64,000 bases of DNA, taken from NCBI GenBank assembly GCA_016191345.1, contig JACPOU010000029.1, positions 62,001 through 126,000 of the forward strand, given 5' to 3'. This document shows positions 4,267-63,425 of the stretch, piece by piece. The DNA comes from Chloroflexota bacterium. GTDB lineage: Bacteria; Chloroflexota; Limnocylindria; Limnocylindrales; CSP1-4. Position 1 is the stretch's first letter. Every line of letters begins with the position of its first letter. The notes below the pieces were generated by a model. The model was given only the letters and a program-made list of their open reading frames with translations. It did no database searches and was not told where the DNA came from. A program made the position numbers and the translations under genes.

Positions 4267-4478
4267 CGGGGACCCGCCAGAGCCGGTGAGCAGCCCTGCC
4301 GTTGCCCCGAGCGCGTGCGCCCCCCAAGGGCGATTCAGCAACGCGAATCGGGCGTGTTCGGCGAGGCATCATCGGATCGTGCCAACAAAGGCAACCCGTA
4401 GAGCACGCGCCTGCGATGCGCCGGTGGCGCCAGGAACAGGTCGTACGGTGACGCGGTTCGCACCGGGAGGGACGGACA

Positions 4479-4868
4479 ATGGGCGGTGATCATCCGAACA
4501 CGCTGGCTTACCTTCGGACCGCTGAAGCCTTCCGCCAGGGGGACTTCGACACCATCGCGTCCTTGATCGCCGAGGACGTGGTGTGGCACGTCCCAGGAGA
4601 CCACCCGCTGGCCGGCGACTGGGAAGGTCGCGATCGCGTGCTCCAGCGGCTCGCGAGGCTCGGTTCGCTCGGGTTCACCCTGCGCGAACACGACGTTTTC
4701 GGCGACGACGACCACGTGTGCGCGCTGAGCTATATGGGCGCGCGCCGGGACAGCCTGGAGGTCGAGACACGCGTCGTGAGCATCTTCCACTTCCGCGATG
4801 GGCGGCAGACTGAGCGATGGATCTACCCGGACGATACGGTCGCCTGGAACAGCATCTTCGGAGGCTGA
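4479..4868 (+). CDS. SnoaL-like/ketosteroid isomerase-related protein
   Basis: A 129-residue single-domain protein of the SnoaL-like superfamily, with the family opening AEAFRQGDFDTIASLIAEDVVWHVPGDHPLAGDWEGRD and strands VVSIFHFRDGRQTERWIYPDD. The ATG at 4479 follows GGGAGGGA by a usable distance. The Trp-His in VVWHVPG and the aspartates in GDHPLAGD are common in this subfamily, but the substrate is unknown. It converges on the flavoprotein gene at 4987, with 118 bases between them. Confidence 0.75.
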   Translation: MGGDHPNTLAYLRTAEAFRQGDFDTIASLIAEDVVWHVPGDHPLAGDWEGRDRVLQRLARLGSLGFTLREHDVFGDDDHVCALSYMGARRDSLEVETRVVSIFHFRDGRQTERWIYPDDTVAWNSIFGG

Positions 4869-4986
4869 TGGCGCGACGTCGCGCCGGAGCAGAGAGACCA
4901 CGGCTGGAGCGGTTCCTGCGAGCATCGGGGCTCCGACACCTGGTCGGCGGGCAACCACGACGGCCGTTCGTTCGTGGTCCGGTCGC

Positions 4987-7678: not shown

Positions 7679-8577
7679 TGCCCAACGTCCATTCGGCCGC
7701 CGCGGCTCATCGCAGCCGACTGATCGGGGTCTTCGCACTGACCCTGTCGGTCCTCGTCATCGAGGTCGTCGGCGGGTTGCTGTCGAACAGCCTGGCACTC
7801 CTCGCCGACGCCGGGCACGTCTTCACCGACGTCTTCGGGGTCGGCTTCGCCCTCGCTGCCATCTGGATCGCCGGTCGGGCCGCGACGAGCGAGCGGACCT
7901 TTGGCTTTCTGCGGCTGGAGATCTTCGCCGCGGTCGCGAATGCGATCCTGCTGTTCGGCGTGGCTGCGTTCATCCTGTACGAGGCGCTGCAGCGCGTGTC
8001 GCAGCCGCCCGAGGTGACGTCGGGCCTCATGCTGGTGGTCGCCGTCGTCGGCCTGCTCGCGAACGCGATCTCGCTGTTCCTTCTGCGGGACGCGCAACGC
8101 CACAGCCTGAACATGCGCGGGGCGTACCTGGAAGTGCTGGGCGACCTCGCCGGATCCGTCGCGGTCATCGTGGCCGCCCTGGTCATTGCCATCACCGGCT
8201 GGACGCAGGCCGACGTCGTCGCCTCGGTGGTGATCGCCCTGCTGATCCTGCCGCGGACCTGGGGCCTCCTCCGCGAGGCGCTGGACGTCCTGCTCGAGGC
8301 CACGCCCAAGGGAATCAACCTCGACCACGTTCGAGCGCACATTGTCGAGGCCCCCGGGGTCGTCGATGTCCATGACCTGCACGCATGGACGATCACGAGC
8401 GGGATGCACGTCGTGAGCGCGCACGTGGTCCTCGGCGAGGACGCGAAGCCCGGCGACATCCTGGACCATCTGGGTAGCTGCCTGGCCGACGACTTCGACG
8501 TCAGGCATTCCACCTTCCAGCTGGAGACGCCGGAGCACGTCGCGTGGGAGGCGCGAGCCGAGCAGGCGCAGCTTTGA
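7678..8577 (+). CDS. Cation diffusion facilitator (CzcD/ZitB-like) metal exporter
   Basis: A 299-residue CDF protein with six transmembrane segments and a C-terminal cytoplasmic domain (from about residue 208, with HDLHAWTITSGMHVVSAHV). The transport site is His47/Asp51 (LADAGHVFTD, TM2) with Glu152/Asp156 (AYLEVLGD, TM5). A histidine is common at the Glu152 position, although glutamate also occurs in some CzcD proteins. It should exchange Zn(II), Cd(II) or Co(II) for protons across the inner membrane. It is translationally coupled to the shortened ArsR regulator. Confidence 0.9.
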   Translation: MPNVHSAAAAHRSRLIGVFALTLSVLVIEVVGGLLSNSLALLADAGHVFTDVFGVGFALAAIWIAGRAATSERTFGFLRLEIFAAVANAILLFGVAAFILYEALQRVSQPPEVTSGLMLVVAVVGLLANAISLFLLRDAQRHSLNMRGAYLEVLGDLAGSVAVIVAALVIAITGWTQADVVASVVIALLILPRTWGLLREALDVLLEATPKGINLDHVRAHIVEAPGVVDVHDLHAWTITSGMHVVSAHVVLGEDAKPGDILDHLGSCLADDFDVRHSTFQLETPEHVAWEARAEQAQL

Positions 8578-9224
8578 CGGCGGCCCGCGCGGCCGACCTC
8601 GCCCGAGGCCGCTGCGTCGAGCACCTTGCCGTCAGCCGGAACGTCGTCGAGGGCTTCATCGCGGTCGCGGCGGTGCTGCCCGCAGGCTGAGAGGCCGCGA
8701 ATCGTTCGGCCAGGGATCCGCGGCCCGGCCGGTGGCAGCGGCGATTCCGGGGTATCGGCGAGCTGTTCGATCGCCCGCCCACGACTGCCCCGGGGCCCGG
8801 CGGGCGGGAGCCCTCGAATGAGGCCGGGATGGCCCGGAGTCGGAGGGTACTCCACGCCCTCGAACTGGTGATCTGCGTTGGAGTCGCTCGGGTCGTCCGC
8901 GTGCCCGCCACGGGCAGCTTGGCGGTCCACCAGTCCTGGGTCGCGAGGCGGGCTTGGCCAAGGAGCAGCAGCCGGGTGCCTCCGACCCGTCTCACGACTC
9001 AGATCGCGGGTTTCCGCGCTCGTCACCTGGCCCGGGGTGACGGATACGACATGCTGACGTGCACGGCTGTGCCCGAATCGAGTACCGAGGCGACTCAAGA
9101 CCCCCCGCGAGCTGCGTGCTGCCCCACGTGCCGGCCCCACGTGCCGGCCCCACGTGCTGGCGCCGCGTGCCGGCCCAGCGCGTCAGGCGCCCCGCGTGCC
9201 GGCCCCGCGTGCCGGCCCAGCGCG
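8578..9224. other. Long intergenic region, no supported gene
   Basis: About 650 bases between the CDF gene and the converging thioesterase gene. Several open frames cross it on both strands, but none has family motifs or a sensible start, and their translations are Arg/Pro-rich. Its last part is the tandem repeat at 9121-9250. Remnants of a degraded gene are possible but cannot be named. Confidence 0.5.
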
Positions 9225-9250
9225 TCAGGCGCCCCGCGTGCCGGCGCCGC
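9121..9250. repeat. GTGCCGGCC-type tandem repeats, including a 42-bp direct duplication
   Basis: Three short units of CCACGTGCCGGCC type begin near 9121. They are followed by two copies of a 42-bp unit at 9167-9208 and 9209-9250 that differ by one base. The array runs over the 3' end of the thioesterase gene (stop at 9225), so the last residues of that protein are made from repeat sequence (RGAGTRGA). It is a likely slippage-prone site. Confidence 0.8.
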
Positions 9251-10187
9251 GCGGCGTGACCTGTGCGCGGATCCGGTCGAGGCCGTCCGCGACCCCGGTG
9301 ATCCGGATCCACCACCCACCCTCGGCCTCGGGCCACGCCGCGCCCGCCACGCGCTCACCGGGCTCGGCGGCGGCCGCGTACTCGATCTCGACCCGGCGCG
9401 GCGTCGCGATCACGGCGTCGGCGCCGCCTGCCGCGACCATCGATTCCTCGATCCAGTCGAGGTAGACCGCGTTGTTGACGTGGCCCATCGGGTCGAGGTC
9501 CTGGCGCCGGACGGCGATCTCGTGGCGCGGCGCATCGTCGGGCGTCGCTGGCGGCTGGACGCGGAGGATCTCGTCCTCGAGCTCGGGGTTCGGGAAGGCG
9601 ACGCCGAAGTCGCCGGGGATCCGGATGATCCGGCCACGGCCGTCGAGGAGGACCCAGTCGGTGTTCGCCAGGGCCGCGAGGGTGCCGCCGGGCAGGCGGA
9701 ACTCGCCGAGCCGGCGGGCCCAGATCCGGCGATGTCCGACGACGGCCGTCGCGAGGCGGAGGGTGCAACCCATGGGCACTGCGGCGAGGACGTCGAGAGC
9801 CACCGACCGGACGACCCACCAGCGGCCCTGATCCGTGTACCACTGGCGATCGAAGCCGCGGTCCTCGGAGTGACGCCAGGCAATGTCCTGCGCGTAGCGG
9901 AGGAGCGACGAGGTGCGCGCGTGCCCGTCGGCACCGGCCTCGTCGAAGCGGACGCGGTAGCCGGCGAGGTAGCCGTTCTCGATGCCGGCGACCGGCCGGT
10001 CGGCCACACCGGTCAGCCCGGGATCGATCAGGGCCGCAGCCGAGGCCGCAGCCGAGGCCGCAGCCGAGGCCGCAGCCGAGGCCGCAGCCGCATCGCCGGA
10101 GGCAGCGACCGACGGGTTCGCGGCCGCGGCGGCCATGCCCTCACCGAGCCGGCGCCGGGCGCCTCGCTCGGGGGTCGAGCGGGTCAC
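9225..10187 (-). CDS. Acyl-ACP thioesterase (FatA/hotdog family)
   Basis: About 320 residues. After a low-complexity Ala/Ser N-terminus come two hotdog domains: residues from GIENGYLAGYRVRFDEAGADGHARTSSLLRYAQD, with WVVRSVALDV, and a second with RRQDLDPMGHVNNAVYLDW. The HVNNAVYLDW motif is typical of acyl-ACP thioesterases that release free fatty acids from ACP. The start GTG 10187 overlaps the previous gene's stop (GTGA); ATG 10136 is an alternative that gives 303 residues. The poly-Ala/Ser stretch is encoded by a 12-bp tandem repeat at 10032-10091. It is the third gene of a GTGA-coupled operon. Confidence 0.8.
   Translation of the reverse strand: MTRSTPERGARRRLGEGMAAAAANPSVAASGDAAAASAAASAAASAAASAAALIDPGLTGVADRPVAGIENGYLAGYRVRFDEAGADGHARTSSLLRYAQDIAWRHSEDRGFDRQWYTDQGRWWVVRSVALDVLAAVPMGCTLRLATAVVGHRRIWARRLGEFRLPGGTLAALANTDWVLLDGRGRIIRIPGDFGVAFPNPELEDEILRVQPPATPDDAPRHEIAVRRQDLDPMGHVNNAVYLDWIEESMVAAGGADAVIATPRRVEIEYAAAAEPGERVAGAAWPEAEGGWWIRITGVADGLDRIRAQVTPRGAGTRGA
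10032..10091. repeat. 12-bp tandem repeat inside the thioesterase gene
   Basis: Four exact units and one partial unit of GGCCGCAGCCGA lie in tandem. Because the period is a multiple of three, it encodes an in-frame Ala-rich AAAS repeat in the thioesterase N-terminal extension. Length variation would change only a flexible linker. Confidence 0.9.
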
Positions 10188-49636: not shown

Positions 49637-49760
49637 GCCGGCGGGGTGACGGTCGTCCGCGATGGCCTGCGCCTCATGCCCAGTGCGCGTCCTTCCACCC
49701 AGAACATCGTGTTCATCGCGAACGGTGGCCGACGCTGACGCCGTTCGGAGTGAGGTTCGG

Positions 49761-50117
49761 TTGACCGGGATCTGGTACATCGTCGGGTTCGCCTTCGCGG
49801 CCGGGTCATTCGCGTTCGTGACCTTCGGCGCCGCGTGGCTGATCTCGCACCGGAACCGGGGTGACATCCACAAGGGCCTGCCCTACGAATCCGGGATCGA
49901 CACGATGGGCGACACCCACGGCCGGTTCGGGCTGTCGTTCTACATCTACGCCCTGCTGTTCGTGGCCTTCGACATCGAGGTCGTGTTCATCTACCTCTGG
50001 GCGATCATCTTCCGGGACCTGCTCCTCGGCGGGTTCGTGAGCATGCTGGTGTTCGTGGCGATCCTCCTGCTGGGACTCGCCTACGCGTGGCGAAAGGGCG
50101 TCCTGACATGGCGATGA
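49761..50117 (+). CDS. nuoA: NADH-quinone oxidoreductase subunit A (NuoA)
   Basis: A 118-residue membrane subunit with three transmembrane helices. Markers are [44 protein letters not shown], containing the essential acidic stretch FDIE(V) of TM2. Start TTG 49761 has GTGAGG upstream and gives normal family length. GTG 49725 is an alternative. It overlaps nuoB by four bases at the preferred nuoB start. Confidence 0.92.
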
Positions 50118-50878
50118 ATCCCGAGCCGGCCTCCGCCACGGACGGCCTCGGCACCGGTCAGACCGACACGACCGCGATCGCCTCGGACGCGACCGCGAAC
50201 CGACCCTCGGCCCTGGTCGTGCCCGGCTCGAGCGCCGTCACGGCGCCGATCGTCCTCCGCAACGAGTTGTGGGCCGCCGACGACCCGACGGCCTACGACG
50301 GCGGCCGGGCCACCGACATCACCCATCTCGCCGAGGTCGAGGCGTCCGGCCAGATGCGCCGCGACGACGCTCGCTGGTCGGGCATGCTCGAGGTCATCCC
50401 GACGAAGGCGGACTACGTCCTGGACCTCCTCCGGGCGAACAGCCTCTGGCCGCTCCTGTCCGGCCTCGCCTGCTGCGCGATCGAGATGATGAGCGCGGCG
50501 ACCTCGAAGAACGACATGGACCGCTGGGGCATGTTCCCGTTCCGCGCCTCGCCGCGGCAGGCGGACGTCCTCATCGTCGCCGGCACGCTGACGACGAAGA
50601 TGGCCGGCCCGCTGGTCCGCCTCTGGGAGCAGATGCCGGAGCCCAAGTGGGTCGTCGCCATGGGCGACTGCACCTGCTCGGGCGGCCGCTACAAGCGGAG
50701 CTACAGCACGGTCGAGGGCATCGACCGGGTGATGCCGGTCGACGTCTACGTTCCCGGCTGCCCCCCGCGTCCCGAAGGCCTGATCTACGGGATGATGAAG
50801 CTCCAGCAGCTCGTCAAGGATCGCCGCGGCCACTGGCCGGATCGCGCCGTGGGCCCCACCGTGCCGGCGGGAGTCTAG
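50114..50878 (+). CDS. nuoB: NADH-quinone oxidoreductase subunit B (NuoB), long N-terminus
   Basis: A 254-residue subunit that holds cluster N2, the electron donor to quinone. The ligands are Cys120-Cys121 (LACCAIEMM), Cys186 (MGDCTCSGG) and Cys216 (PGCPPRPEG), all present. The first 85 residues are an Ala/Thr-rich addition, longer than most NuoB. ATG 50114 is chosen for the ATGA overlap with nuoA; ATG 50108 is possible. Confidence 0.94.
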
Positions 50879-50881
50879 GGG

Positions 50882-51427
50882 GTGGATCGAGCGCTCAAGG
50901 CCCGCCTCGAGGCCAGGTTCGGCGACGTCCTGTCCGGACCGATTCGCCAGCGCCACGACGAGACGGAGCTCCGCATCGAGCCGAAGGACGTGCCGGACGT
51001 GCTCCGATCGCTCCACGACGAGCCGGCCTTCCACTTCGAGATGCTGTCCGACCTGGCCGGCGTCGATACCGGCGAGCACATGCAGGTCGTCTACCACCTC
51101 TGGAGCGAGACGACCCCGGACTGGCTCCGGGTCGTCGCCGACGGCCTCTCCCGGGAGGACCCGCGCACGCCGTCCGTGACCTTCCTCTGGAAGGGCGCGG
51201 AGTGGATGGAGCGCGAGGCCTACGACATGTTCGGCATCATCTTCGAGGGCAACCGCGACCTGCGGCGGATCTACATGCCGCCCGACTACCAGAGCTTCCC
51301 GCTGCGGAAGGACTTCTACCTCGCCGATGACGCGGCCCGATCGCCGGGCGCCGGCGTCCGGCACATGGAGCGGAGCCACGCCCCCAACGACACCGCGGGC
51401 CAGGCCGTCCGGACGGTGAAGGCATGA
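50882..51427 (+). CDS. nuoC: NADH-quinone oxidoreductase subunit C (NuoC)
   Basis: A 181-residue 30-kDa subunit with the signature EWMEREAYDMFGIIFEGNRDLRRIYMPPDYQSFPLRKDFYL. It belongs to the Q-module with NuoB/D. It starts with GTG 50882 after a TAGGGGG run and overlaps nuoD by ATGA. Confidence 0.95.
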   Translation: MDRALKARLEARFGDVLSGPIRQRHDETELRIEPKDVPDVLRSLHDEPAFHFEMLSDLAGVDTGEHMQVVYHLWSETTPDWLRVVADGLSREDPRTPSVTFLWKGAEWMEREAYDMFGIIFEGNRDLRRIYMPPDYQSFPLRKDFYLADDAARSPGAGVRHMERSHAPNDTAGQAVRTVKA

Positions 51428-52641
51428 CGCTCACCGGCGAGCGCTCCCAGGATGATCCGCGCGTCGTCCTCGACCGCGAGATCGGGGTCTTCGAGCCCGT
51501 TCCGCCGTACCCGCCCCGCACCGAGCGGGAAGCCGAGTTCTACACGCTCGGCGACGGCCAGATGCTCCTCAACATGGGCCCCCAGCACCCGTCCACCCAC
51601 GGCGTCCTGCGGGTCGTCCTGAAGCTCGACGGCGAGAAGGTCGTGGACCTGGACCCGGTCCTCGGCTACCTCCATCGCGGCGTCGAGAAGCTCTGCGAGA
51701 ACGCCGACTACCACCAGGTCATCAGCCAGGTGGACCCGCTCGAGTACATCAGCTCGCTCTTCTGCGAGTGGTCGCCGGTCATGGCCTTCGAGAAGCTCCT
51801 CGATGTCGAGGTGCCGCGCCGGGCCGAGTACATCCGGGTCCTCTCGGGCGAGCTGAACCGGATCGCCAGCCATGCCCTGTTCATGGGCTGGTTCGCGCTC
51901 GACCTCGGCGGGCTCACACCGATCCTCTGGTCGTTCATCGAACGCGACGAGATCGTCGAGATGCTCGCCGCGCTGACGGGCCAGCGGATGCTCTTCAACT
52001 ACTTCCGGATCGGCGGCGTCAACGGTGACCTGAACCACGAGTTCATGAGCCGTCTCGGCGACTGGATGAGCCGGGCGACGGGGCAGATCGAGGCCAATCT
52101 CACGCTCCTCAACGAGAACGAGATCTTCGTCCGCCGGGCCCGCGGCCTCGGTGCCATCGACACCGCGACGGCGCTCCGCCAGGTCATGACCGGCCCGAAC
52201 CTCCGGGCGACCGGCGTGCCGTTCGACATCCGCCGGGCGCATCCGTACTCGGCCTACCCGGAGCTCGATTTCGACATCCCGACCCGATCGGAGGGCGACT
52301 CGCTCGCCCGCTACCTGCTCCGGATGGACGAGATCAAGCAGAGCCTCCGGATCATCGACCAGTGCCTCCACCAGATGCCGGACGGGCCGATCCTGGCCAA
52401 GCTGCCGCGGCTGCTTCGCCCCCGCCCCGGCCGGGCCTACGCCGCGATCGAGGGACCGCGCGGGCAGTACTCGACGTATGCGATCAGCGACGGGACGGAC
52501 CAGCCCTTCCGGATGCGGATCCACGACCCGAGCTTCATCCACCTCCAGTCGGTGGGGCTCCTCATGCGCGGCGACCTCATCGCCGACTGCATGGCGATCA
52601 TGGCCTCCCTCGATCCGATCATGGGCGGGGTCGACAAGTGA
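51424..52641 (+). CDS. nuoD: NADH-quinone oxidoreductase subunit D (NuoD)
   Basis: A 405-residue 49-kDa subunit forming the quinone site with NuoB. Conserved blocks: MGPQHPSTHGVLR (quinone His), LGYLHRGVEKL, QVDPLEYISSL, FDIRRAHPYSAY and the end DPIMGGVDK. The probable target arginine region for MidA-type methylation is present in LHRGVEKL and neighbouring parts, but the exact residue cannot be fixed by eye. A 163-base gap with the dispersed repeat follows. Confidence 0.96.
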   Translation: MTLTGERSQDDPRVVLDREIGVFEPVPPYPPRTEREAEFYTLGDGQMLLNMGPQHPSTHGVLRVVLKLDGEKVVDLDPVLGYLHRGVEKLCENADYHQVISQVDPLEYISSLFCEWSPVMAFEKLLDVEVPRRAEYIRVLSGELNRIASHALFMGWFALDLGGLTPILWSFIERDEIVEMLAALTGQRMLFNYFRIGGVNGDLNHEFMSRLGDWMSRATGQIEANLTLLNENEIFVRRARGLGAIDTATALRQVMTGPNLRATGVPFDIRRAHPYSAYPELDFDIPTRSEGDSLARYLLRMDEIKQSLRIIDQCLHQMPDGPILAKLPRLLRPRPGRAYAAIEGPRGQYSTYAISDGTDQPFRMRIHDPSFIHLQSVGLLMRGDLIADCMAIMASLDPIMGGVDK

Positions 52642-52714
52642 CCGCCGCCGGACGGGCCATCCCCGCGTTGACGCCCGCGCTGGGGCGGCCGATCCCCGCG
52701 TTGGCCGCTCCGCT

Positions 52715-52777
52715 CGCTCGCTCACGCACGTCTGAGTGCGCTCGCTCGCGTGCTCGCATCCGCCTTGGCCTCGGCTC
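52715..52777 (-). repeat. Dispersed intergenic repeat, copy 2 (upstream of nuoH)
   Basis: The minus strand matches 44621-44688 across the whole length, with one 5-base gap and about seven mismatches. It lies 27 bases before the nuoH ATG and splits the otherwise tightly packed nuo operon. Confidence 0.75.
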
Positions 52778-52804
52778 GCCCGAGCCCGGGCAAGGGATCG
52801 CTGC

Positions 52805-54142
52805 ATGACCGCGGTGGGCCGGACCTGGAACCGGCTGACGCTGCCGGGCAAGATCGTCTTCACGGTCGTGCCGCTGCTCGTCGTGCTGACGGCCGGGCTC
52901 ATCGCCACGATCGTCATCCTCGGCGGCCCGATCGTGGACCTCCTCGCCGCGAACATCGGCATCGTCCGGTTCGCCGCGGCCGCGACGATCATCCTCCTGA
53001 TCACCATCCCGGTGGCGTTCCTGAACATCTTCCTGGAGATGAAGGTCATCGCCCTGATGAACCTCCGGATCGGGCCGGACCGGGTGGGACCGTGGGGCAC
53101 GCTCCTGTCCGTCGTCCACGGGCTCAAGGTCCTCATGAAGGAGGACTTCACCCCCACCGGCGCGGATTCCGTGGTCTTCACCTGGGCGCCGGTCGTGACC
53201 TACGCCGCGGCGGTGATGACCCTCCTCGTCATCCCCTTTGCCCCCGGGCTCTACGGCCAGGACTTCAACATCGGCCTCCTCTACTTCTTCGCGGTCGGCG
53301 GGATGGGCGTCGTGGGCCTGCTCATGGGCGGCTGGTCCAGCTTCAACAAGTACTCCCTGCTCGGCGGGCTCCGGTCGGCGGCCCAGATCGTCAGTTACGA
53401 GATCCCGCTGACGCTGTCGGTGGTGGGCCTGCTGATCCTCGCCGGCACGATGAGCCTCAACCAGATCGTCCAGCAGCAGTCCGGCTGGTTCACCGACTGG
53501 TACGTCATCCGCCAGCCGCTCGGCTTCGTGATCTTCTTCATCGCCGCGACCGCGGAGGGCAACCGGACCCCGTTCGACCTGTCCGAGGCGGACTCGGAGA
53601 TCGTCGCCGGCTTCGCGACGGAGTATTCCGGGATGCGCTTCGGGTTCTTCTTCTTCGCCGAGTACGTGAACGTGTTCATCCTCTCGGCGCTCGCGTCGGT
53701 CCTCTTCTTCGGCGGCTGGAACGCGCCGTTCCCGTTCCCGGACATCGCCCTGAACCTGGATCCGGCGAGCGTCGGCATCCCGCTCCTCTTCATCGTCGCC
53801 CTGGTGCCGCTCATCGGGACGCTCGTGCTGGCCGCCCCGTTCTACCTGCTCCGCAGCTCGATGCGCTGGTGGGTCGCGCTGATCATCGGCTTCGTCCTCT
53901 TCAACGTCGTCGCCGGCGGCCTCCTCTTCGCCTGGGCGTACGTGAGCTTCGACTGGGTGGCCGGCCTCATCTGGTTCGTCCTCAAGACGTTCACCTTCGT
54001 CTTCATCTTCGTCTGGATGCGCGGCACGCTGCCCCGGGTCCGGATCGACCAGCTCATGGGCTTCGCCTGGAAGTGGCTGCTGCCGGCGGCTCTCCTGAAC
54101 CTGTTCGTCACCGCCGCCGCGGTCCTCGTGGTGGGCTCATGA
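52805..54142 (+). CDS. nuoH: NADH-quinone oxidoreductase subunit H (NuoH)
   Basis: A 445-residue membrane subunit with about nine transmembrane segments, linking the peripheral and membrane arms. Markers: LEMKVIALMNLRIGPDRVGPWG, GWSSFNKYSLLGGLRSAAQIVSYE, TAEGNRTPFDLSEADSEIVAGF and EYSGMRFGFFFFAEY. The charged quinone-channel residues are in place. ATG 52805 is chosen for the family start; the dispersed repeat is upstream. It overlaps the next gene by ATGA. Confidence 0.95.
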   Translation: MTAVGRTWNRLTLPGKIVFTVVPLLVVLTAGLIATIVILGGPIVDLLAANIGIVRFAAAATIILLITIPVAFLNIFLEMKVIALMNLRIGPDRVGPWGTLLSVVHGLKVLMKEDFTPTGADSVVFTWAPVVTYAAAVMTLLVIPFAPGLYGQDFNIGLLYFFAVGGMGVVGLLMGGWSSFNKYSLLGGLRSAAQIVSYEIPLTLSVVGLLILAGTMSLNQIVQQQSGWFTDWYVIRQPLGFVIFFIAATAEGNRTPFDLSEADSEIVAGFATEYSGMRFGFFFFAEYVNVFILSALASVLFFGGWNAPFPFPDIALNLDPASVGIPLLFIVALVPLIGTLVLAAPFYLLRSSMRWWVALIIGFVLFNVVAGGLLFAWAYVSFDWVAGLIWFVLKTFTFVFIFVWMRGTLPRVRIDQLMGFAWKWLLPAALLNLFVTAAAVLVVGS

Positions 54143-54804
54143 GCTTCGTCCCCGGCATCGGCCTCGTGAAGGGCATGGCGCTCACGCTGCGCCGCTTCTT
54201 CGAGCCCAAGGCCACGATCCGCTACCCCGAGGTCGAGGCGGACGTCCCCCCGAAGTTCCGCGGCCGACTGCAGCTCCTCTACGACGAGTACGGCACGCTC
54301 AAGTGCGAGACGTGCTTCCAGTGCGCCCAGGCCTGCCCGATCGAGTGCATCGACATGGGCGGCATGGACACGAAGGGCCGCTTCCACGTCCACTGGGGCC
54401 CGCCCGAGACGTACGGCGAGCGGCGCGAGGAATCCGCGCTCCGGCGCTCCGGCCGGACGGTGCCGGATCCCCGCTATGCCCACTTCGAGGGCGTGGACCT
54501 GACCGCCCTCGAGGCGATCCTTGCGGAGTTCGACCACGACCCGGAGCGGATGCTCGAGATCCTGGAGGCGACGCAGGCCGTCTACGGCTATCTCCCGGTC
54601 GCCGCGCTGAAGCAGATCAGCCAGGCCACCGGCGCCTGGTACGCGATGATCTACGGGACCGCGTCCTACTACCGCCACCTCCGCTTCGAGCCGGCGTCGA
54701 ACGAGCAGCAGGCGGCCGCGATGGACGCCCGGCGGCCCCTCGAGTCGGCGTACGTGGCGGGCCTCGATGCCGCCCTCGGCGGCCGGCCCGGCGGCGACGC
54801 ATGA
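54139..54804 (+). CDS. NuoI/NuoE chimera: one-cluster ferredoxin part joined to NuoE helical domain
   Basis: A 221-residue protein in the NuoI position. Residues 1-70 resemble the start of NuoI (GMALTLRRFFEPKATIRYPE, PPKFRGRLQLLYDEYGTLKC) with one [4Fe-4S] motif, Cys56-x2-Cys59-x2-Cys62-x3-Cys66-Pro. The second NuoI motif is absent. After a linker (HVHWGPPETYGERREE), residues about 120-187 match the helical N-terminal part of NuoE (MLEILEATQAVYGYLPVAALKQISQATG, YGTASYYRHLRF). NuoE's thioredoxin-like [2Fe-2S] domain is missing, and the protein ends in an Ala/Gly tail. It is coupled by ATGA to nuoH and nuoF. Confidence 0.8.
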   Translation: MSFVPGIGLVKGMALTLRRFFEPKATIRYPEVEADVPPKFRGRLQLLYDEYGTLKCETCFQCAQACPIECIDMGGMDTKGRFHVHWGPPETYGERREESALRRSGRTVPDPRYAHFEGVDLTALEAILAEFDHDPERMLEILEATQAVYGYLPVAALKQISQATGAWYAMIYGTASYYRHLRFEPASNEQQAAAMDARRPLESAYVAGLDAALGGRPGGDA

Positions 54805-56180
54805 CCGACATCGCCAGGCTCGAGACGCCGAAGGGCTGGCCGTCGATCCTCCTGCCCCCGGCGGGCAAGGGGGCGGCCAGGGGCACGGGCACGGGCACGG
54901 GCGATGCCGCGCGGGGTGCGGGCGGCGATGCCTCGGATCTCGACGCGGCCATGAAGGCCGGCGCCTGGGAGGGGCTGCGTCGGGCGATCCGCGACCTCGG
55001 GCCTACCGGGACCATCGCCGCGATCGGCTCGTCCGGCCTGCGGGGCCGCGGCGGCGCCGGGTTCCCCGCCGCGGACAAGTGGCGCGCGGCCGCCTCGGCG
55101 CCGGGCCCGCGCGTCGTCGTCGCAAACGGCTACGGCGCGGACCCGTCGAGCCGGACGGACCAGCTCCTCCTCGAGACGAACCCGTACGCGGTGCTCGAGG
55201 GACTTGCGATCGTGGCCCTCGCGATCGGCGCCGAGGAGGCGATCGTCGCGGTCCGCGCCACCGCGGGGAGCACGATCCGGATCCTCGAGGCCGCCATCGC
55301 CGCGGCCTGGGACGCCGGCTTCGCGGGCACCGACGCCCTGGGTTCCGGCCACTTCCTGGACCTCAGGCTCCAGACCGTCCAGGGTGCCTACCTGCTCGGC
55401 GAGGAGACCATCCTCCTGAAGGCCCTCGAGGGCAAGCGGGGCCAGCCCCAGCAGCGCCCGCCGCATCCGGCCACGAACGGGCTCCGCGGCCGGCCGACGG
55501 TCGTCCACAACGTCCAGACGCTCGCCGCCATCCCGTGGATCGTCGTCAACGGGCCTGCCGCGTTCGCGACGACCGGCGTTCCGGAGGCCCCGGGCACGAT
55601 CCTCGTCGAGGTCCGCGGAGCGGAGCGCTCCGGCGTCGCCGAGGTCCCGCTCGGCACGTCGCTCCGCGAGATCGCCGGGCTCGGCGGCAAGTCCGGCGGC
55701 CGCGCGCTGAAGGCCGTCCTCGTCGGCGGGCCGTCGGGCGGGATCCTGCCGCCCGAGCTCCTCGACACGCCGTACACGTTCGATGCCCTGCGCGCCGCCG
55801 GTGCCCACGTCGGCTCGGGCTCGGTGATCGTCGCGGACGAGCGCGCCTGCATCGTCGACCTCGCCCGGGTCCTGACCCGCTTCTGCGCGGACGAGGCCTG
55901 CGGCAAGACGATCCCCTGCCGGATCGGCACCCGCCGGCTCTCGGAGATCGGCGACCGTCTTGCCACCGGGACGTCCCGGGCCGGCGACCTCGACCTGATG
56001 GCCGACCTGGCGTCCGATATCGTCGGCTCCGCGCTCTGCGACCACGAGCGCCTGGCGACCCTCCCGCTGATGAGCGGGATGCGATACTTCCGAACGGAGC
56101 TCGACGAGCATCTCGAGCGCAGCTCCTGCCCCGCGGGCGTCTGTCATCCGATCGCGATGGCAGCGAGCGCGACGCATTGA
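54801..56180 (+). CDS. NuoF-like subunit with altered NADH/FMN loop and incomplete [4Fe-4S] motif
   Basis: A 459-residue NuoF homologue. Retained parts: RGRGGAGFPAADKW (FMN), GAYLLGEETILLKALEGKRG, the SLBB-type GGPSGGILPPELLDTPY and GSVIVADERACIVD. Altered parts: the NADExEPGxFKDR loop is ANGYGADPSSRTDQ, and the ESCGKCxPCREG motif is EACGKTIPCRIG, so the second ligand is Thr370. Cys367, Cys373 and Cys413 remain, and Cys363 lies nearby. NADH oxidation in the classical way is doubtful. It lies between the chimera and the NfnB-like fusion and is coupled by ATGA upstream. Confidence 0.85.
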   Translation: MTDIARLETPKGWPSILLPPAGKGAARGTGTGTGDAARGAGGDASDLDAAMKAGAWEGLRRAIRDLGPTGTIAAIGSSGLRGRGGAGFPAADKWRAAASAPGPRVVVANGYGADPSSRTDQLLLETNPYAVLEGLAIVALAIGAEEAIVAVRATAGSTIRILEAAIAAAWDAGFAGTDALGSGHFLDLRLQTVQGAYLLGEETILLKALEGKRGQPQQRPPHPATNGLRGRPTVVHNVQTLAAIPWIVVNGPAAFATTGVPEAPGTILVEVRGAERSGVAEVPLGTSLREIAGLGGKSGGRALKAVLVGGPSGGILPPELLDTPYTFDALRAAGAHVGSGSVIVADERACIVDLARVLTRFCADEACGKTIPCRIGTRRLSEIGDRLATGTSRAGDLDLMADLASDIVGSALCDHERLATLPLMSGMRYFRTELDEHLERSSCPAGVCHPIAMAASATH

Positions 56181-56190
56181 GGCCCCGACC

Positions 56191-58839
56191 TTGGCTGACC
56201 TGATCACGCGCCCAGACAACCGGCCGGACATGCCGATCGTGCAGGACACGACCACGGTCCGGGAGGACACGCTCGCCGAGCGGCTCCTGACCACCCAGGC
56301 GCCGCAGCGGCCGCAGTCCACGCCGGTCATCCGGATCGAGGTCGACGGGCGTGTCGTCGAGGGCTTCGAGGGCCAGACGATCCTCGAGGTCTGCCGGGAC
56401 AACGGGATCGAGATCCCGACCCTGTGTTACGAGCCCAAGCTGCCCGGCTTCGGGGCCTGCCGGATGTGCGTCGTCGAGGTCGAGGGCGAGGAGCACCCGC
56501 AGATCAGCTGCACCCGGTCCTGCGACGACGGGATGAAGGTCCAGACCCAGACCGAGGAGGTCCGGCGCCTCCGCCGGACGAACCTGGAGCTGATCTTCAG
56601 CGACCACAACGCCTACTGCCTGCCGCCCTGCCAGAACAAGTGCCCCAGCCACATCGACATCCCGGGCTTCCTCAAGCAGAACGCCGAGGGCAACTGGCGC
56701 GAATCCACCCGGATCTTCAAGCGGACGATCCCCTTCCCGTCGGTCCTCGGCCGCGTCTGCCCCGCCCCGTGCGAGGACCACTGCCGCCGCGACGAGGTGG
56801 ACGAGGCGATCGCGATCCGCGACAGCCACCGCTATGCCGGCGACCAGGTCCTGAAGGCGATGCTCGACGATGGGCTGGACCCGCCCGTCCCGTTCGAGGT
56901 CCAGCCGGCCACGGGTCGCAGGGCGGCCGTCATCGGCTCCGGCCCGGCCGGCATGGCCGCCGCCTACTACCTGCTCCTCTCCGGGCACGACGTGACGGTC
57001 TTCGAGCGCGACCCCGCCCCGGGCGGGATGCTCCGCTACGGGATCCCGCAGTACCGGCTGCACAAGGTGGAGGTCCTCGAGGCCGAGTACGAATCCGTCA
57101 CCCGCCTCGGGGGCAGGATCGTCTGCAACCAGGCCCTCGGCCGCGACTTCACGCTCGATGACCTCCAGTTCCAGGGCTTCGATTCGGTCCTCGTCGCGAT
57201 CGGCTGCTACGACACGAACAAGCTCGGCGTGCCGGGCGAGGACGCGGCCGAGGTCCTCGACGGGCTCGAGTACCTGCGGACCGCCACGCTCGGCCTGCCG
57301 TACCCGGACCATGCCGGCAAGCGGGTCATCGTCATCGGCGGCGGCTTCACCTCGATGGACTGCTCGCGAACCTCCGTCCGCCAGGGCGCGAAGGAAGTGA
57401 CGCTCGTCTATCGCCGCGACATGAAGGACATGCCCGCGTCGGGCGAGGTCCACGAGGCGATCGAGGAAGGCGTCACGGCGATCTTCCAGGCCGGCCCGAC
57501 GCGGGTCATCACGGACGCGAAGGGCAATGTCACCGGCGTCGAGTTCATCCGGATGGCGCTGGGCGCCCCGGATGCGTCCGGCCGTCGCCGCCCCGAGCCG
57601 GCCCCCGGCACCGAGTTCACGATCCCCTGCGACCGTGTCCTGCTCGCGATCGGCCAGGGCCCGGAGCTGGACTGGATCGGACCGGGGTCCGCGGGTCCCA
57701 CGGCGACGAGGAACAAGCGCCTCCAGGCGGACGCGGTGACGTTCGAGACCGCGCGTCCCGGCGTGTTCGCCACCGGCGACGTGCGGATCGGCGCGGCGAC
57801 CGTCGTCCAGGCCATCGCCGAGGGCCGGCGCGCGGCCTACGCCGTCGATGCGTTCCTGCGCGGCCACGACATGGCGTCGATCAAGACCCGCCAGACGCTC
57901 GCCGAGCCGCAGCCGGAGTTCCTCTCGATCGTCCCCTTCACGGCCGAGGTCAAGGAGCCGCGCTACCGCCTCAAGGCCCTGGAGGCCGAGGAGCGCAACC
58001 GGAACTACGTCGAGTACGAGATCCCGTACTCCACGGCGGAGGCCGTCGCGGAATCGACGCGCTGCCTCCAGTGCACCTGCGAGGCGATCGGGTTCTGCGA
58101 CCTGCGCCGGCTCGGGATCGAGTACCAGACGACGCTCCCGACGCTCGAGCCCCAGTTCCACCAGGGCGCGGGGTACCGGAGCGTCACCGAGAACCGCTTC
58201 ACCGGCATCAACCACGACTACATCCGGGACGATTCCCACGCCTTCATCCTCCGGGAGCCGTCGCGCTGCATCGACTGCGGCCGCTGCGCGACCGTCTGCG
58301 CCGAGGTCGTCGGGGCGGCCTGCTACGACTTCATGCGAATCGGCTTCGACACCCTCGTGACGACGCCACTCGACATGAGCCTCAACGACACGCCCTGCGT
58401 CTCCTGCGGGCGGTGCGCCGAGACGTGCCCCACGGGCGCGCTCATGCCGAAGCCGCGGGTCCTGGAGAAGTACGAGGTCGACGAGTCCCGCTGCATCCTC
58501 TGCGGCATCTGCGTCGACGCCTGCCCCTACGACGCCCTCCGCGACGGCGGCGAGTTCGAGCTCTCCCACGTGAGCCGCGAGGCCCCGATGATCGACCTCA
58601 TGGCCCTCGCCGCGGTCGATCGCGAGACCGAGGTCACCTACATCCGCAAGGAGCGCGACTGGCTCCAGCGGGCCGCCGACGAGGGTCGGTTCGTCGATCG
58701 CGGGCGGCTCCTCCCGATGCTGCCGGCGGGCCTCGCCGCGGCGAACGCCGGGAACGGCAACGGCGGCTCCGCGCTCACGACGACCGGTCACGGCCACGAT
58801 CACGGCGGCGCGGGTGGGACCCACGCCAACGCGAGGTAG
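56191..58839 (+). CDS. NuoG-like [2Fe-2S] domain fused to GltD/NfnB-type FAD-NAD(P)H oxidoreductase and ferredoxin domains
   Basis: An 882-residue fusion. Residues 45-125: NuoG-type [2Fe-2S] ferredoxin (Cys79, 90, 93, 107). Residues 130-230: GltD-type cysteine region (Cys143, 147, 151; Cys190, 194, 198). Residues 240-590: FAD site VIGSGPAGMAAAYY, PGGMLRYGIPQYRL, NAD(P)H site VIVIGGGFTSMDC with VYRRD, and GVFATGDVRIGAATVVQAI. After residue 620: a CxxCxC motif (Cys625), then four-Cys motifs at 693-703, 736-746 and 768-778. The molybdopterin-fold half of NuoG is absent. It probably takes electrons from NAD(P)H and passes them along clusters to NuoB. Confidence 0.85.
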   Translation: MADLITRPDNRPDMPIVQDTTTVREDTLAERLLTTQAPQRPQSTPVIRIEVDGRVVEGFEGQTILEVCRDNGIEIPTLCYEPKLPGFGACRMCVVEVEGEEHPQISCTRSCDDGMKVQTQTEEVRRLRRTNLELIFSDHNAYCLPPCQNKCPSHIDIPGFLKQNAEGNWRESTRIFKRTIPFPSVLGRVCPAPCEDHCRRDEVDEAIAIRDSHRYAGDQVLKAMLDDGLDPPVPFEVQPATGRRAAVIGSGPAGMAAAYYLLLSGHDVTVFERDPAPGGMLRYGIPQYRLHKVEVLEAEYESVTRLGGRIVCNQALGRDFTLDDLQFQGFDSVLVAIGCYDTNKLGVPGEDAAEVLDGLEYLRTATLGLPYPDHAGKRVIVIGGGFTSMDCSRTSVRQGAKEVTLVYRRDMKDMPASGEVHEAIEEGVTAIFQAGPTRVITDAKGNVTGVEFIRMALGAPDASGRRRPEPAPGTEFTIPCDRVLLAIGQGPELDWIGPGSAGPTATRNKRLQADAVTFETARPGVFATGDVRIGAATVVQAIAEGRRAAYAVDAFLRGHDMASIKTRQTLAEPQPEFLSIVPFTAEVKEPRYRLKALEAEERNRNYVEYEIPYSTAEAVAESTRCLQCTCEAIGFCDLRRLGIEYQTTLPTLEPQFHQGAGYRSVTENRFTGINHDYIRDDSHAFILREPSRCIDCGRCATVCAEVVGAACYDFMRIGFDTLVTTPLDMSLNDTPCVSCGRCAETCPTGALMPKPRVLEKYEVDESRCILCGICVDACPYDALRDGGEFELSHVSREAPMIDLMALAAVDRETEVTYIRKERDWLQRAADEGRFVDRGRLLPMLPAGLAAANAGNGNGGSALTTTGHGHDHGGAGGTHANAR

Positions 58840-58846
58840 GCCGCTG

Positions 58847-59434
58847 ATGCGCGCCTGGCTCTACCTGCTCGCGGCGGCCATCGCCGGCGCGATCATCACG
58901 ACCCCGGCGATCCTCGTCTTCCTGCTCGGCGGCGGCTCCACCGACGACGCCCTCTTCGCGTCGCTGGCCACGCTGCTGCTCGTCTCGGCGATCGCCGTCG
59001 TGACGATGCGCGACATCATCCGCTGCGGCCTGGCCATGATCGTCTCGTTCCTGTCCCTGGCCGGCATCTACGTCGTCGTCGGGGCGCCCCTCGTCGCGGC
59101 CGCGCAGGTCATCGTCTACATCGGCGCGATCAGCGTCCTGATCCTCTTCGCGATCATGCTGACCCAGTCGAAGGCGGGGCCCTCGAAGCTCGTCTTCCAG
59201 ACCCAGGCGGCGCCGGCGGCCGTGGCGGCCATCGTCCTCGCGGTGCTCATCGCGCTCGGGGTCGCCTCGACGGACTGGGGCGAGGTCGGCCAGCGGGCCC
59301 GGCTGGCCACCGATGCCCTGGCGCGCCTCCTGTTCGACGCATACGTCCTGCCCTTCGAGATCGTGAGCGTCCTGCTCCTCGCGGCGGTGATCGGCGGCGT
59401 GTTCATCGCCAAGCGCGAGGAGGGCGCCAGCTGA
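58847..59434 (+). CDS. nuoJ: NADH-quinone oxidoreductase subunit J (NuoJ)
   Basis: A 195-residue membrane subunit with five to six hydrophobic segments. The conserved TM3 area is [30 protein letters not shown] 58847 is chosen over 58834-type upstream options because the membrane segment begins there. Its TGA and the nuoK ATG share one base. Confidence 0.93.
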
Positions 59435-59745
59435 TGGCCGATTCTCTCGACGCCTACCTCGTCGTCTCCGGCATGCTCTTCGCGATCGGCTCCTTCGGGT
59501 TCCTGGCCCGGCGGAACGCGATCAGCATGCTGATGTCGATCGAGCTGATGCTCAACGCGGTCAACCTCGCGATCGTCGCGTTCGGGGCCTTCATCCCCAG
59601 GCTCAACGGCGACGGCTCGGTCATCGCCCTCATGGTCATGGCCGTCGCCGCGGCCGAGGCCACGGTCGGCCTCGCGATCGTCATCGCGATCTACCGGAAC
59701 CGGAAGACCCCGCTCGTCGACGAGTACGACGCGATGCGGCGATGA
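59434..59745 (+). CDS. nuoK: NADH-quinone oxidoreductase subunit K (NuoK)
   Basis: A 103-residue three-helix subunit. The two membrane glutamates of the proton path lie in [18 protein letters not shown] and [19 protein letters not shown]. It overlaps nuoL by ATGA. Confidence 0.95.
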
Positions 59746-61733
59746 TCGACACCCTCATCCCGCTCATCGCGGCCCTGCCGCTCGCGGGATTCCTCGTGAC
59801 CGCCGCGATCGGGCGGCGGCTCGGCAGGCAGGCCCACTGGATCCCGGTCGCCGCGGTCGCCCTGGCCTGGGCCGCGTCGATGATCGTCGTCGTGACCGCG
59901 CTCACCGGCGGCGCGCCGTTCGGCGAGGGCGGTCACAGCGTCAGGCTCTGGGACTGGATCCCGGCCGGCAGGCTCCGGGTCGAGGCAGCCTTCTTCGTCG
60001 ACAACCTGACCGCCGTCCTGCTCATCGTCGTCATGTCGGTCGGTCTCCTCGTCCACGTCTACTCGATCGGCTACATGCGCCATGACCCCGGCTACTGGCG
60101 CTTCTTCGCCTACCTGAACCTCTTCATGTTCTCGATGCTGCTCCTCGTCCTCGGTGACAGCTGGCTGACGATGTTCGTCGCCTGGGAGCTGGTGGGCCTG
60201 TCCAGCTACCTCCTCATCGGCTTCTGGTACCGGAAGCGGTCCGCCGCCCTCGCGAGCAAGAAGGCCTTCATCGTCAACCGCGTCGGCGACGTGGGGTTCG
60301 CGCTCGGGATCATGGCGATCTGGGTGAACACCGGGACGCTGAACATCCAGGAATCGCTGCGTCTCATGACGAGCGAGACCCTGACCGCCTTCCCGATCCC
60401 GCTCGGCCTCGTCGCACTCCTCGTCTTCGCCGGAGCGATGGGCAAGAGCGCCCAGTTCCCGCTCCACGTGTGGCTGCCGGACGCGATGGAGGGCCCCACG
60501 CCGGTCTCCGCCCTGATCCACGCCGCGACGATGGTCAACGCCGGCGTCTACCTCGTCGCGCGGGCCAATCCGCTCTTCGCAACGGCGCCCGAGGCGATGG
60601 TCATCGTGGCTGCGATCGGCATCTTCACGGCGATCCTCGCGGCCTCGATCGCGATGACCCAGACCGACATCAAGCGGGTCCTGGCCTATTCGACGCTCAG
60701 CCAGCTGGGCTACATGTTCGCGGCGCTGGGCGTCGGCGCGTGGACCGCGGCGATCTTCCACCTCATGGCCCAGGGATTCACCAAGGGCCTCCTGTTCCTC
60801 GCCTCCGGTTCGGTCATCCACGCCGTCCACGACGAGCAGGACATGCGGAAGATGGGGGGCCTCCGGCGCAAGATTCCGCATACCTACCGGACGATGCTCA
60901 TCGGGGCCATCGGGATGGCCGGGATCCCGCCCCTCGCCGGCTTCTTCAGCAAGGACGAGATCATCGGGGAGGCCTTCAAGCTCGGATTCCAGTGGGTCTG
61001 GGCGATCGGCGTCGTCGTCGCGATCATGACCGCGTTCTACATGTTCCGGCTCATCGGCCTGACGTTCTGGGGTGAGAGCCGGGTGGACCCGGCAGTCGAA
61101 CCGACGGTCCACGAATCGCCACCGGTCATGACCGCGCCGCTCTGGCTCCTCGCGATTCCATCCATCCTCCTCGGCCTGGTCCTCGCCTGGCCGGGGCCGC
61201 CGATCGGGCCGCTGTTCGGGCTGCCGGGCCCGGGCCTCCTCGCGGGCTGGCTCGAGCCGGTCTTCAGGAGCGGACGGGAGATCCTGGGTGAACGCGAGAG
61301 CGCGTTTGCGCTCTTCGGCATCGACGGCGCCCTCATCGCCGCGAGCGTGGCGGTGGCGGTCATCGGCATGGTCGTCGCGTGGCGGCTCTTCGGGGTCGAG
61401 ATCGGGCCGCTCCGCGGCCGCGGCAAGCCGGAGCTCGTCCGGCAGCTCACCGCGCGCGTGCCGTTCCTCTACCGCGCCTCGCTCAACAAGTGGTGGTTCG
61501 ATGACCTCAACCACCTTCTGTTCATGGTCATCGGCGGCCGGATCGCCGGCGTCCTGTGGTGGTTCGATACCCGCGTCGTCGACGGCATCGTGAACGGCAT
61601 CGGGGCGGTCACCCGGCGGAGTGGCGGCGGCCTGGCTCGCGTCCAGACGGGCCGGGTCCAGAACTACGCCCTCGGCATCGCGTTCGGGCTCATCGTCATG
61701 GTCGGGTCGTACCTCATGATCGCGGGCCGCTAG
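59742..61733 (+). CDS. nuoL: NADH-quinone oxidoreductase subunit L (NuoL)
   Basis: A 663-residue antiporter-like subunit with about 16 membrane segments and the lateral helix at the end. Markers: [18 protein letters not shown] (essential Glu), [53 protein letters not shown], and [21 protein letters not shown]-type block. It pumps protons at the distal membrane arm. Confidence 0.96.
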
Positions 61734-61736
61734 GCA

Positions 61737-63425
61737 ATGGCCAACCTGCCGATCCTGTCGATCGTCACCTTTCTGCCGCTCGCCGGGGCGCTCCTCGTCG
61801 GGCTCCTGCCGGCCCGCTATGCCCGGCCCGTCGCCCTCGGAACGGCCCTCCTGGCCTGGGTCGCCTCGCTTCTCCTCGTCATCGGCTTCTCGACGAGCCG
61901 CGGCGGGCTCTTCCAGTTCGTCGAGGAGGTGAGCTGGATCCCGAGCTTCGGCATCGAATACAAGCTCGGGGTCGACGGGCTGTCGCTTGTCCTCGTTCTT
62001 CTGACGACGACGCTGACGTGGATCAGCATCCTGGCGAGCTTCAGGCCGATCCAGACCCGGATCAAGGAGTACATGGTCGCCTTCCTCGTCCTCGAGGTCG
62101 GGATGATCGGCGTGTTCCTGGCCCTCAACTCCTTCCTCTTCTACATCTTCTGGGAGATCGTCCTCGTCCCGATGTACCTGATCATCGGGATCTGGGGCGG
62201 AGCGAACCGGATCTACGCCACGATCAAGTTCGTCCTCTACACCCTGGTCGGGTCGCTCCTCATGCTCGTCGCGATCCTCGCGACCGCCTTCGCGTTCCAG
62301 GCGGCCAACGGCGGCAGCTGGGCCGGCGCCTTCGACTTCCAGGTCCTCCGCGAGTACGCGACGCAGGGCGGCGGCTTCGACCCGACGCTCCAGCTCCTCG
62401 CCTTCGGGGCGTTCTTCCTCGCCTTCGCGATCAAGGTCCCGATGTTCCCCTTCCACACCTGGCTGCCGGACGCCCACGTCGAGGCGCCGACCGCGGGCTC
62501 CGTGATCCTGGCCGCGGTGATGCTGAAGCTGGGTGCCTACGGCTTCATCCGCTGGACGCTGTCGCTCTACCCGGACGCGGCCCACACGTACGCGCCGCTG
62601 ATCATCGTCCTGAGCCTGATCGGGATCATCTACGGCGCGATCGTCGCCCTCGTCCAGCCGGACCTCAAGAAGCTCGTGGCCTACTCGTCCGTCTCGCACA
62701 TGGGCTTCGTCACGCTCGGGATCTTCGTCTTCCAGCCGCAGGCCATGGAGGGCGCGATCCTCCAGATGATCAACCACGGGCTGATCACGGGCGCCCTCTT
62801 CCTCCTCGTCGGCGTGATCTACGAGCGGACCCACGACCGGACGATCGCGAAGATGGGCGGCCTCGCCGGCCGGACCCCGGTCTACATCGCGATCTTCGGG
62901 TTCTTCGTCTTCGCCTCCGCCGGCCTGCCGGGCCTGTCCGGGTTCGTCGGCGAGTTCCTGACCCTGATCGGGACGTTCGCGGCGAATCCATGGGCCGCCG
63001 TGGTCGCGACGTTGGTCATGATCTTCGCCGCGGGCTACCTCCTGTGGATGTTCCAGCGGGTCGCGACCGGCGAGCTCTCGGGGTTCCTGTCGGGGCTCGG
63101 CAGCCGCCTCACGGACATCAGCCCGGTCGAGATCCTGACCCTCGCCCCGCTCGCCGCGCTCGTGGTCGCGTTCGGCCTCTTCCCGGGCCTGCTCCTCGAC
63201 ACGATCGCCGGCAGCGTCGACGCTTCGCTCGCCGACGCGTCCGCGGGCTCTGCCATCGCCGTCGATCCGCTCGTGGTGGCCGCCGGGCTCGGGATCGTCG
63301 CGGCCGCGATCGTCGTCCGGATCCTGACCCTGCCGGCGGGGAGCCGGACGTCCACCACGGCGCCGACGACGCCCGCGGACGGCACGCCCGCCGGCGAGAC
63401 GGCCGCCCCGGGGAGCGCTGCATGA
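61737..63425 (+). CDS. nuoM: NADH-quinone oxidoreductase subunit M (NuoM)
   Basis: A 562-residue antiporter-like subunit. Markers: FWEIVLVPMYLIIGIWGG (essential Glu), KVPMFPFHTWLPDAHVEAPT, DLKKLVAYSSVSHMGFV and MINHGLITGALFLLVGVIYERT. The C-terminal 40 residues are a Thr/Ala/Pro tail. It begins three bases after nuoL and overlaps nuoN by ATGA. Confidence 0.96.
   Translation: MANLPILSIVTFLPLAGALLVGLLPARYARPVALGTALLAWVASLLLVIGFSTSRGGLFQFVEEVSWIPSFGIEYKLGVDGLSLVLVLLTTTLTWISILASFRPIQTRIKEYMVAFLVLEVGMIGVFLALNSFLFYIFWEIVLVPMYLIIGIWGGANRIYATIKFVLYTLVGSLLMLVAILATAFAFQAANGGSWAGAFDFQVLREYATQGGGFDPTLQLLAFGAFFLAFAIKVPMFPFHTWLPDAHVEAPTAGSVILAAVMLKLGAYGFIRWTLSLYPDAAHTYAPLIIVLSLIGIIYGAIVALVQPDLKKLVAYSSVSHMGFVTLGIFVFQPQAMEGAILQMINHGLITGALFLLVGVIYERTHDRTIAKMGGLAGRTPVYIAIFGFFVFASAGLPGLSGFVGEFLTLIGTFAANPWAAVVATLVMIFAAGYLLWMFQRVATGELSGFLSGLGSRLTDISPVEILTLAPLAALVVAFGLFPGLLLDTIAGSVDASLADASAGSAIAVDPLVVAAGLGIVAAAIVVRILTLPAGSRTSTTAPTTPADGTPAGETAAPGSAA

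Follow-up and report, generated by a model that had tools for sequence, protein, structure and literature searches.

A NuoI/NuoE chimera in a complex I operon of Chloroflexota as one apparent half of a split iron-sulfur subunit

The operon and its fusion gene

The window, meaning the whole 64,000-nucleotide stretch of DNA analysed in this work, carries on its plus strand a complex I operon in which nuoA, B, C, D and H (49662-54142) lie upstream, and nuoJ, K, L and M (58814-63425) downstream, of the three genes discussed below. The last gene, nuoN, starts at 63422 on the same strand, overlaps nuoM by ATGA and runs beyond the window end. The complex I genes nuoA, B, C, D, H, J, K, L, M and N are all present, with Pfam matches over cut-off, and NuoB, in GCPPRPE and another motif of ten residues (not shown), retains the cysteines expected for N2, which we take to be the ligands of this cluster. 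NuoH (52736-54142) is 468 aa long, with homologues from family f4 aligning at 74-335 and 408-465, and the NuoH of families f1 and f2 seems, by sequence, to have some 70 extra residues inserted. Long open reading frames also run antisense to the nuo genes on the minus strand (55546-58824, 1092 aa; 59691-62834, 1047 aa); these are expected from the high G+C and were not accepted as genes.

The first of the three genes (54139-54804, plus strand, 221 aa) was described in the initial annotation as a NuoI/NuoE chimera with a single cluster motif, lacking the cluster domain of NuoE, its parts sharing one frame and both its ends overlapping the neighbouring genes. This description stands in all its parts. 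The gene is a single frame with zero internal stops, and it overlaps nuoH at 54139-54142 and nuoF at 54801-54804, each time by ATGA. Its two parts belong to different subunits: NuoI models match residues 9-83 (NF004536, 4.1e-15; TIGR01971, 1.2e-13, model positions 1-65 of 121), and PF01257 (NuoE) matches residues 125-187, at model positions 2-64 of 145 only. At 50.7 bits the protein does not reach the TIGR01971 cut-off (113.05). The NuoI N-terminal half proper spans residues 9-74 (54163-54360) and scores 71.2 bits against a profile of that half. It contains the only CxxCxxCxxxCP motif of the protein, equivalent to the first NuoI motif (C56-x2-C59-x2-C62-x3-C66-P67, 54304-54339), whose four cysteines are kept in 33 of 33 aligned rows. 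The helical N-terminal domain of NuoE follows at residues 118-187 (54490-54699), as indicated by PF01257 and by structural match, with no thioredoxin fold after it; the four-cysteine, thioredoxin-like [2Fe-2S] domain of NuoE is absent from the fusion, which has no cysteine beyond residue 70.

The initial annotation took the fusion to imply a geometry unlike that of normal complex I. The two parts are joined by a linker of about 40 residues (roughly 75-116), given which the NuoE helices could still take their usual place on NuoF. In the predicted structure these helices match NuoE-type chains (Z 12.5 to 7p5h_C over 68 residues, rmsd 1.1). The ferredoxin half was modelled without confidence: pLDDT is below 50 at residues 58-110, the alignment behind the model is shallow and drawn from one class, and the list of structure matches holds no NuoI-type chain. 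Such a disordered-looking prediction fits the need of a half-ferredoxin for a partner, and equally a thin alignment.

The second half of NuoI

The initial annotation further held that the chimera has half the clusters of each parent. For NuoE this may well be so, since its cluster domain looks lost, stepwise across relatives; for NuoI it is not, since the second half of this subunit is present about 3.7 kb downstream. It forms the end of a NuoG/GltD/half-NuoI fusion of 882 aa, here named GltG (56191-58839, plus strand), which occupies the nuoG position two genes 3' of the chimera. GltG begins with a [2Fe-2S] domain (Fer2_4, residues 46-121, 56326-56553) and continues with a two-cluster domain of the Nfn/GltD type (Fer4_20, residues 143-221, 56617-56853), a GltD-like FAD/NAD(P) domain (Pyr_redox_2, residues 245-545, 56923-57825) and NuoG/HydA-type dicluster ferredoxin motifs (residues 690-752, 58258-58446). 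The NuoI C-terminal half comes next (residues 756-812, 58456-58626), with the second NuoI motif C768-x2-C771-x2-C774-x3-C778-P779 (58492-58527) retaining its four cysteines in 30 of 30 aligned rows. The conservation counts of both motifs exclude L109, L051, L042, fusion rows of 190 aa or fewer and GltG rows under 600 aa. The predicted structure of GltG supports its FAD region only (Z 27.9 to 9bov_A over 372 residues, rmsd 3.7) and is unreliable past residue 566, again with a shallow alignment from one class.

The matches of the two proteins to TIGR01971 are complementary, covering model positions 1-65 in the fusion and 71-113 in GltG (of 121), and GltG, at 49.6 bits, falls below the cut-off of 113.05 as the fusion does. 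The same picture emerges from half-NuoI profiles (N and C) built from 21 NuoI sequences split in two, 20 of them from Chloroflexota and one from E. coli. The fusion scores 71.2 bits against N and 11.1 against C; GltG scores 20.0 against N and 44.8 against C, the latter over 57 residues around its third motif, with its own dicluster motifs reaching 5.8 and 12.6 bits on the C profile. A divergent but genuine NuoI of the same phylum (L109) gives 71.5 and 49.9 bits, so that the fragments in the fusion and GltG, taken together, resemble one NuoI. Pooled fusions (n=115) have medians of 68.6 (N) and 11.0 (C), and pooled GltG (n=87) a median of 44.0 on C, with 12.6 bits for the second-best C domain. 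The NuoI sequences used for training have higher medians, 132.8 (N) and 112.5 (C), as expected for sequences inside the model. The pooled counts exclude L109 as a canonical NuoI, and that of GltG also excludes rows probably cut by contig ends (under 600 aa in genome loci or 780 aa in named loci). Only two of the 87 GltG rows score low (L051 and L173), and both carry a frameshift that puts the NuoI half into the next frame. The motif string is present in 56 of the 70 named GltG frames, and 23 of the 24 genomes with a fusion yielded both NuoI halves, among the matches listed. With high confidence, these sequence comparisons argue that NuoI is split between its two ferredoxin motifs, its halves residing on two other proteins; the chimera is real and conserved, and by the same evidence it is best described as one half of a split subunit.

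As a separate observation, the frameshift in L173, a CSP1-4 contig, falls near 14407, exactly at the junction of GltG and its NuoI half. It is probably a sequencing error; if real, it would detach that half.

Distribution among Chloroflexota

Within the Chloroflexota, to which the distribution search extended, a homologue of the fusion (E<=1e-10) is present in 136 of the 151 genomes of the window's class and in 36 of its 41 genera, and the CxxCxxCxxxCP motif occurs in all 80 fusion loci kept (the best 80 of 155 from a contig scan). An assembly break, which had been thought unlikely from the single contig, is hard to reconcile with this recurrence. The same best 80 of 155 loci come in part from named relatives such as Ca. 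Limnocylindrales, CSP1-4, Ca. Limnocylindrus and Ca. Aquidulcis; from these names we infer that the class carrying the fusion is Candidatus Limnocylindria.

NuoI (TIGR01971) over cut-off was found in none of 39 genomes of the class, as opposed to 26 of 30 comparator Chloroflexota genomes outside it; a second, intact NuoI elsewhere in these 39 genomes was likewise not found over cut-off. Sub-cut-off hits of 51-57 bits spanning both motifs do occur in three genomes (G020, G026 and G070), and the one in G070 has a NuoH-like match close by on its contig; our guess is that they belong to a complex of the group 4 hydrogenase type.

Outside the class, fused-type matches occur in at least 45 genomes (families f13, f21, f33, f35 and f38). 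There the cassette reads nuoB-fusion-nuoF-gltG, often alone and without adjoining nuoC, D and H, with a fuller operon in f33. Ordinary NuoI and NuoF over cut-off are present in all 10 of these cassette genomes that were searched for both, so the window's class appears to be the one that retains the altered version only. Some four-gene cassettes (L096, L099 and similar) stand free in genomes owning an ordinary complex I, and might serve there as a second kind of input module that attaches to the membrane arm of that complex.

Gene order varies within the class as well. Families f3 and f5 (L050-L062) have B, D, fusion, F and GltG in one place and A, C, H, J, K and L in another. Across 34 fusion stretches (L006, L036-L055 and L096-L108), gltG is seen in 32, L054 ending before it, and nuoF adjoins the fusion in 33, all but L106. 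The latter (8457-9644) is a second fusion in genome G187, with nuoB as its sole nuo neighbour and neither nuoF nor gltG in the stretch. Cassettes without nuoC, D and H, and L106 itself, may differ in function. The assembly of the window also holds a second nuoA-B-C-D-H-fusion-F-GltG operon on another contig (C38; L006, 1-7300), whose fusion is 40% identical to that of the window and whose NuoF is sister to f4 (L048, 100/99); with contamination of this genome (G000) put at 6.68%, the contig may be a contaminant or the operon a transferred copy.

The electron-input end

Relatives of the fusion differ in how much of NuoE they retain. Those of f4, f2 and part of f1 end in a thioredoxin-like tail in which the first cysteine pair is kept and the second is missing, and in those of the window's genus, f3/f5 and other classes the tail is absent, which by sequence looks like a loss of the NuoE cluster domain in steps. 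The gene between the fusion and gltG encodes an eroded NuoF (54801-56180, plus strand, 459 aa), which scores 330.4 bits against an equivalog cut-off of 558.65. Its residues 109-116 (55125-55148) read NGYGADPS where E. coli NuoF has NADEMEPG, and Asp92 of the latter is replaced in every cassette NuoF row aligned. At residues 367-373 (CGKTIPC, 55899-55919) the second N3 cysteine is Thr, and in the in-frame rows of f1, f2 and f4 it is Thr, Ala or Ser (the row of L042 is partly out of frame); all four N3 cysteines are kept in f3 and other classes, and the GRGGAG loop is mostly kept. We take the altered residues to be holders of FMN, NADH and N3. Matches to 9bov_B and 8oh5_B cover positions 115-526 of 584 only, leaving the N- and C-terminal parts of these chains unmatched. 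In a NuoF tree, a 100/99 branch has 23 non-cassette NuoF-like rows on one side and all cassette rows on the other, setting aside eight duplicate cassette genes (L209-L213 and L218-L220) and with L042 left out. A short repeat of the GGGCAC type at 54880-54905 gives this NuoF a low-complexity N-terminus.

The explanation that we consider probable is a complex I in which the NADH module has been replaced by an NAD(P)H module similar to that of Stn/NfnABC, with NuoI split and clusters N6a and N6b formed between two chains. NuoE, NuoF and NuoG would have given way to a NuoE-like helical stub, the eroded NuoF and a NuoG-like protein with an FAD domain of the GltD/NfnB type, and NuoI would have been cut between its ferredoxin motifs, the first half going to the NuoE stub and the second to the end of the NuoG/GltD protein. 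NADPH, or less likely NADH, would reduce the FAD of the GltD domain, and its electrons would move along the Nfn-type and NuoG-type clusters within GltG to the counterparts of N6a and N6b, two [4Fe-4S] clusters formed only where the fusion and GltG chains meet, and from these to N2 in NuoB and, in the ordinary way, to quinone. For NuoF and the NuoE stub a mainly structural role would then remain. Four features that can be read in the sequences underlie this explanation: the domain make-up, the complementary halves, how well these are conserved, and the failure of any NuoI to reach cut-off in the class genomes that were searched. Clusters built in trans and the use of NADPH are deduced from them, with moderate confidence. 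A bolder version, which extends to the whole class and has N6a and N6b each built in trans (three cysteines plus one), the NADH/FMN site dead and NADPH driving the pump via a relocated FAD, is put forward tentatively, as something slightly short of an even chance.

The choice of nucleotide rests on the FAD domain of GltG, which matches StnC, NfnABC, NfnL and GltD. Residues Arg408-Arg409 in its second Rossmann fold are invariant in 30 rows and presumably bind NADPH; together with the kinship to GltD, this sequence feature suggests NADPH rather than NADH. The transhydrogenase PntB (NAD(P) transhydrogenase) is found in 24 of 24 class genomes, including f2 genomes of about 1 Mb, versus 8 of 30 comparator Chloroflexota (Fisher p 1.3e-8, a value that overstates the evidence, as the class is one clade and its genomes are not independent). 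It is, however, somewhat doubtful yet conceivable that the FAD takes NADH, in which case the complex would still be an NADH dehydrogenase with its entry point moved. A match to E. coli Ndh is present in 16 of the 24 class genomes, so NADH can bypass the complex in most of them; it was not found in G000 or in the three f2 genomes of about 1 Mb searched, which may need another route for NADH. On the use of NADPH this distribution neither supports nor refutes anything. Against NADH entry, PntB in all 24 genomes could pass the electrons of NADH to NADPH, and in StnC, a close relative, it is NADPH that the FAD domain oxidises, passing the electrons on via its own clusters (available text of PMC10482914).

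As to the clusters, a dicluster ferredoxin ligates each of its two with three cysteines from one motif and a fourth from the other motif, and it is because this ligation crosses the motifs that N6a and N6b would be shared between the fusion and GltG. Assembly in trans is chemically reasonable, since half-ferredoxins can assemble as homodimers holding two clusters (excerpts of PMC12648291). Alternatively, the fusion and the third motif of GltG could each bind one [4Fe-4S] as independent domains, making a side-by-side relay with ligands unshared. Four cysteines are kept in each motif, the third motif of GltG could in principle bind a cluster alone, and a natural half-ferredoxin is reported in single- and di-cluster forms in the same excerpts (PMC12648291). 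Even so, we regard this as unlikely: both halves keep flanks specific to NuoI (residues 9-74 in the N-half, a 57-residue match in the C-half), and the retention of all eight cysteines of an ordinary NuoI suits a dicluster with shared ligands.

About equally improbable is that NuoF still works with FMN and NADH, the GltD-type FAD being an extra flavin in a confurcating complex I. Such a complex has already been proposed as Nuo-Bfu, in which a BfuABC-type module replaces NuoEFG and NADH and ferredoxin are confurcated, in Deferribacteres, Proteobacteria, Planctomycetes and Nitrospirae (PMC9304861, in the part available). In favour of a working NuoF are its place beside the fusion in all but one of the 34 stretches, the GRGGAG loop and the four N3 cysteines of f3 and other classes; Asp92 is nonetheless replaced in all cassette rows, in-frame rows of f1, f2 and f4 lack the second N3 cysteine, and the terminal parts of the 9bov_B and 8oh5_B chains have no counterpart. 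Pfam (E up to 1) finds only PF01512 and PF10589 in NuoF, short of the domain set of BfuB under an InterPro-to-Pfam mapping that we assume to be right. According to the available part of PMC9304861, BfuB consists of a 51K FMN domain, SLBB, the NuoF iron-sulfur region and a C-terminal ferredoxin domain. The idea of a complex I with a replaced module is thus common to both, but here NuoI is split, one half is fused to NuoE, NuoF is stripped and degenerate-looking, and the Bfu domains are missing; neither a split NuoI nor a NuoI-NuoE fusion figures in that part of the Nuo-Bfu account (PMC9304861). An artefact of assembly or annotation, for which only the metagenome-type genomes and the 6.68% contamination of G000 could speak, is refuted by the same fusion in independent genomes (136 of 151, and 80 of 80 named loci) and has practically no chance of being right.

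A replaced NADH module with NuoI split between two chains, which we prefer, has likenesses elsewhere. In the available text, Stn and NfnABC (8oh5, 9bov, 9n5u; PMC10482914) share the three-part make-up of NuoE-like, NuoF-like and NuoG-GltD proteins, GltG has the NuoG-GltD fusion with an FAD domain that is typical of Stn, and in the PDB, NuoF and GltG are matched best by chains of 9bov and 8oh5/9n5u. Unlike them, GltG has a NuoI half in place of the FdhF-like C-terminal domain, and NuoF is stripped to its core and eroded. Moreover, Lys170 of StnC, a ligand of cluster C7, is called strictly conserved in that text (PMC10482914), whereas every one of the 30 rows here has His213 at its position, as found by hand count along the 9bov_A alignment. 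The split SdhB of Euglenozoa, the nearest such case encountered, is likewise a respiratory iron-sulfur subunit encoded as two half proteins, but its break lies between domains (PMC2663770, as excerpted), and that of NuoI lies inside the dicluster fold, with the halves fused to other subunits. Semidoxins and other half-ferredoxins can build two clusters from two chains, as designed or free small homodimers in what is available of PMC12648291; here the pair is heteromeric and sits within two larger subunits. The open-access literature searched yielded no published description of the split NuoI arrangement.

In its usual form NuoI belongs to the conserved core of complex I and is a dicluster ferredoxin in one indivisible piece. 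If our interpretation is correct, the electron wire of this complex can assemble between chains, with the cut kept across a class, which would make these bacteria a naturally occurring case for studying the construction and insertion of cluster pairs, and complex I can be fed by a different nucleotide and flavin. This would be relevant to how the ancestral machine acquired an NADH module and can lose it again, and to the energy metabolism of abundant uncultured freshwater and soil Chloroflexota.

The genome of the window has another NuoF-like gene, on contig C55 at about 3411-5526 (436.9 bits, in a frame of 784 aa), which has a ferredoxin-like neighbour and is probably part of a separate flavin-based enzyme.
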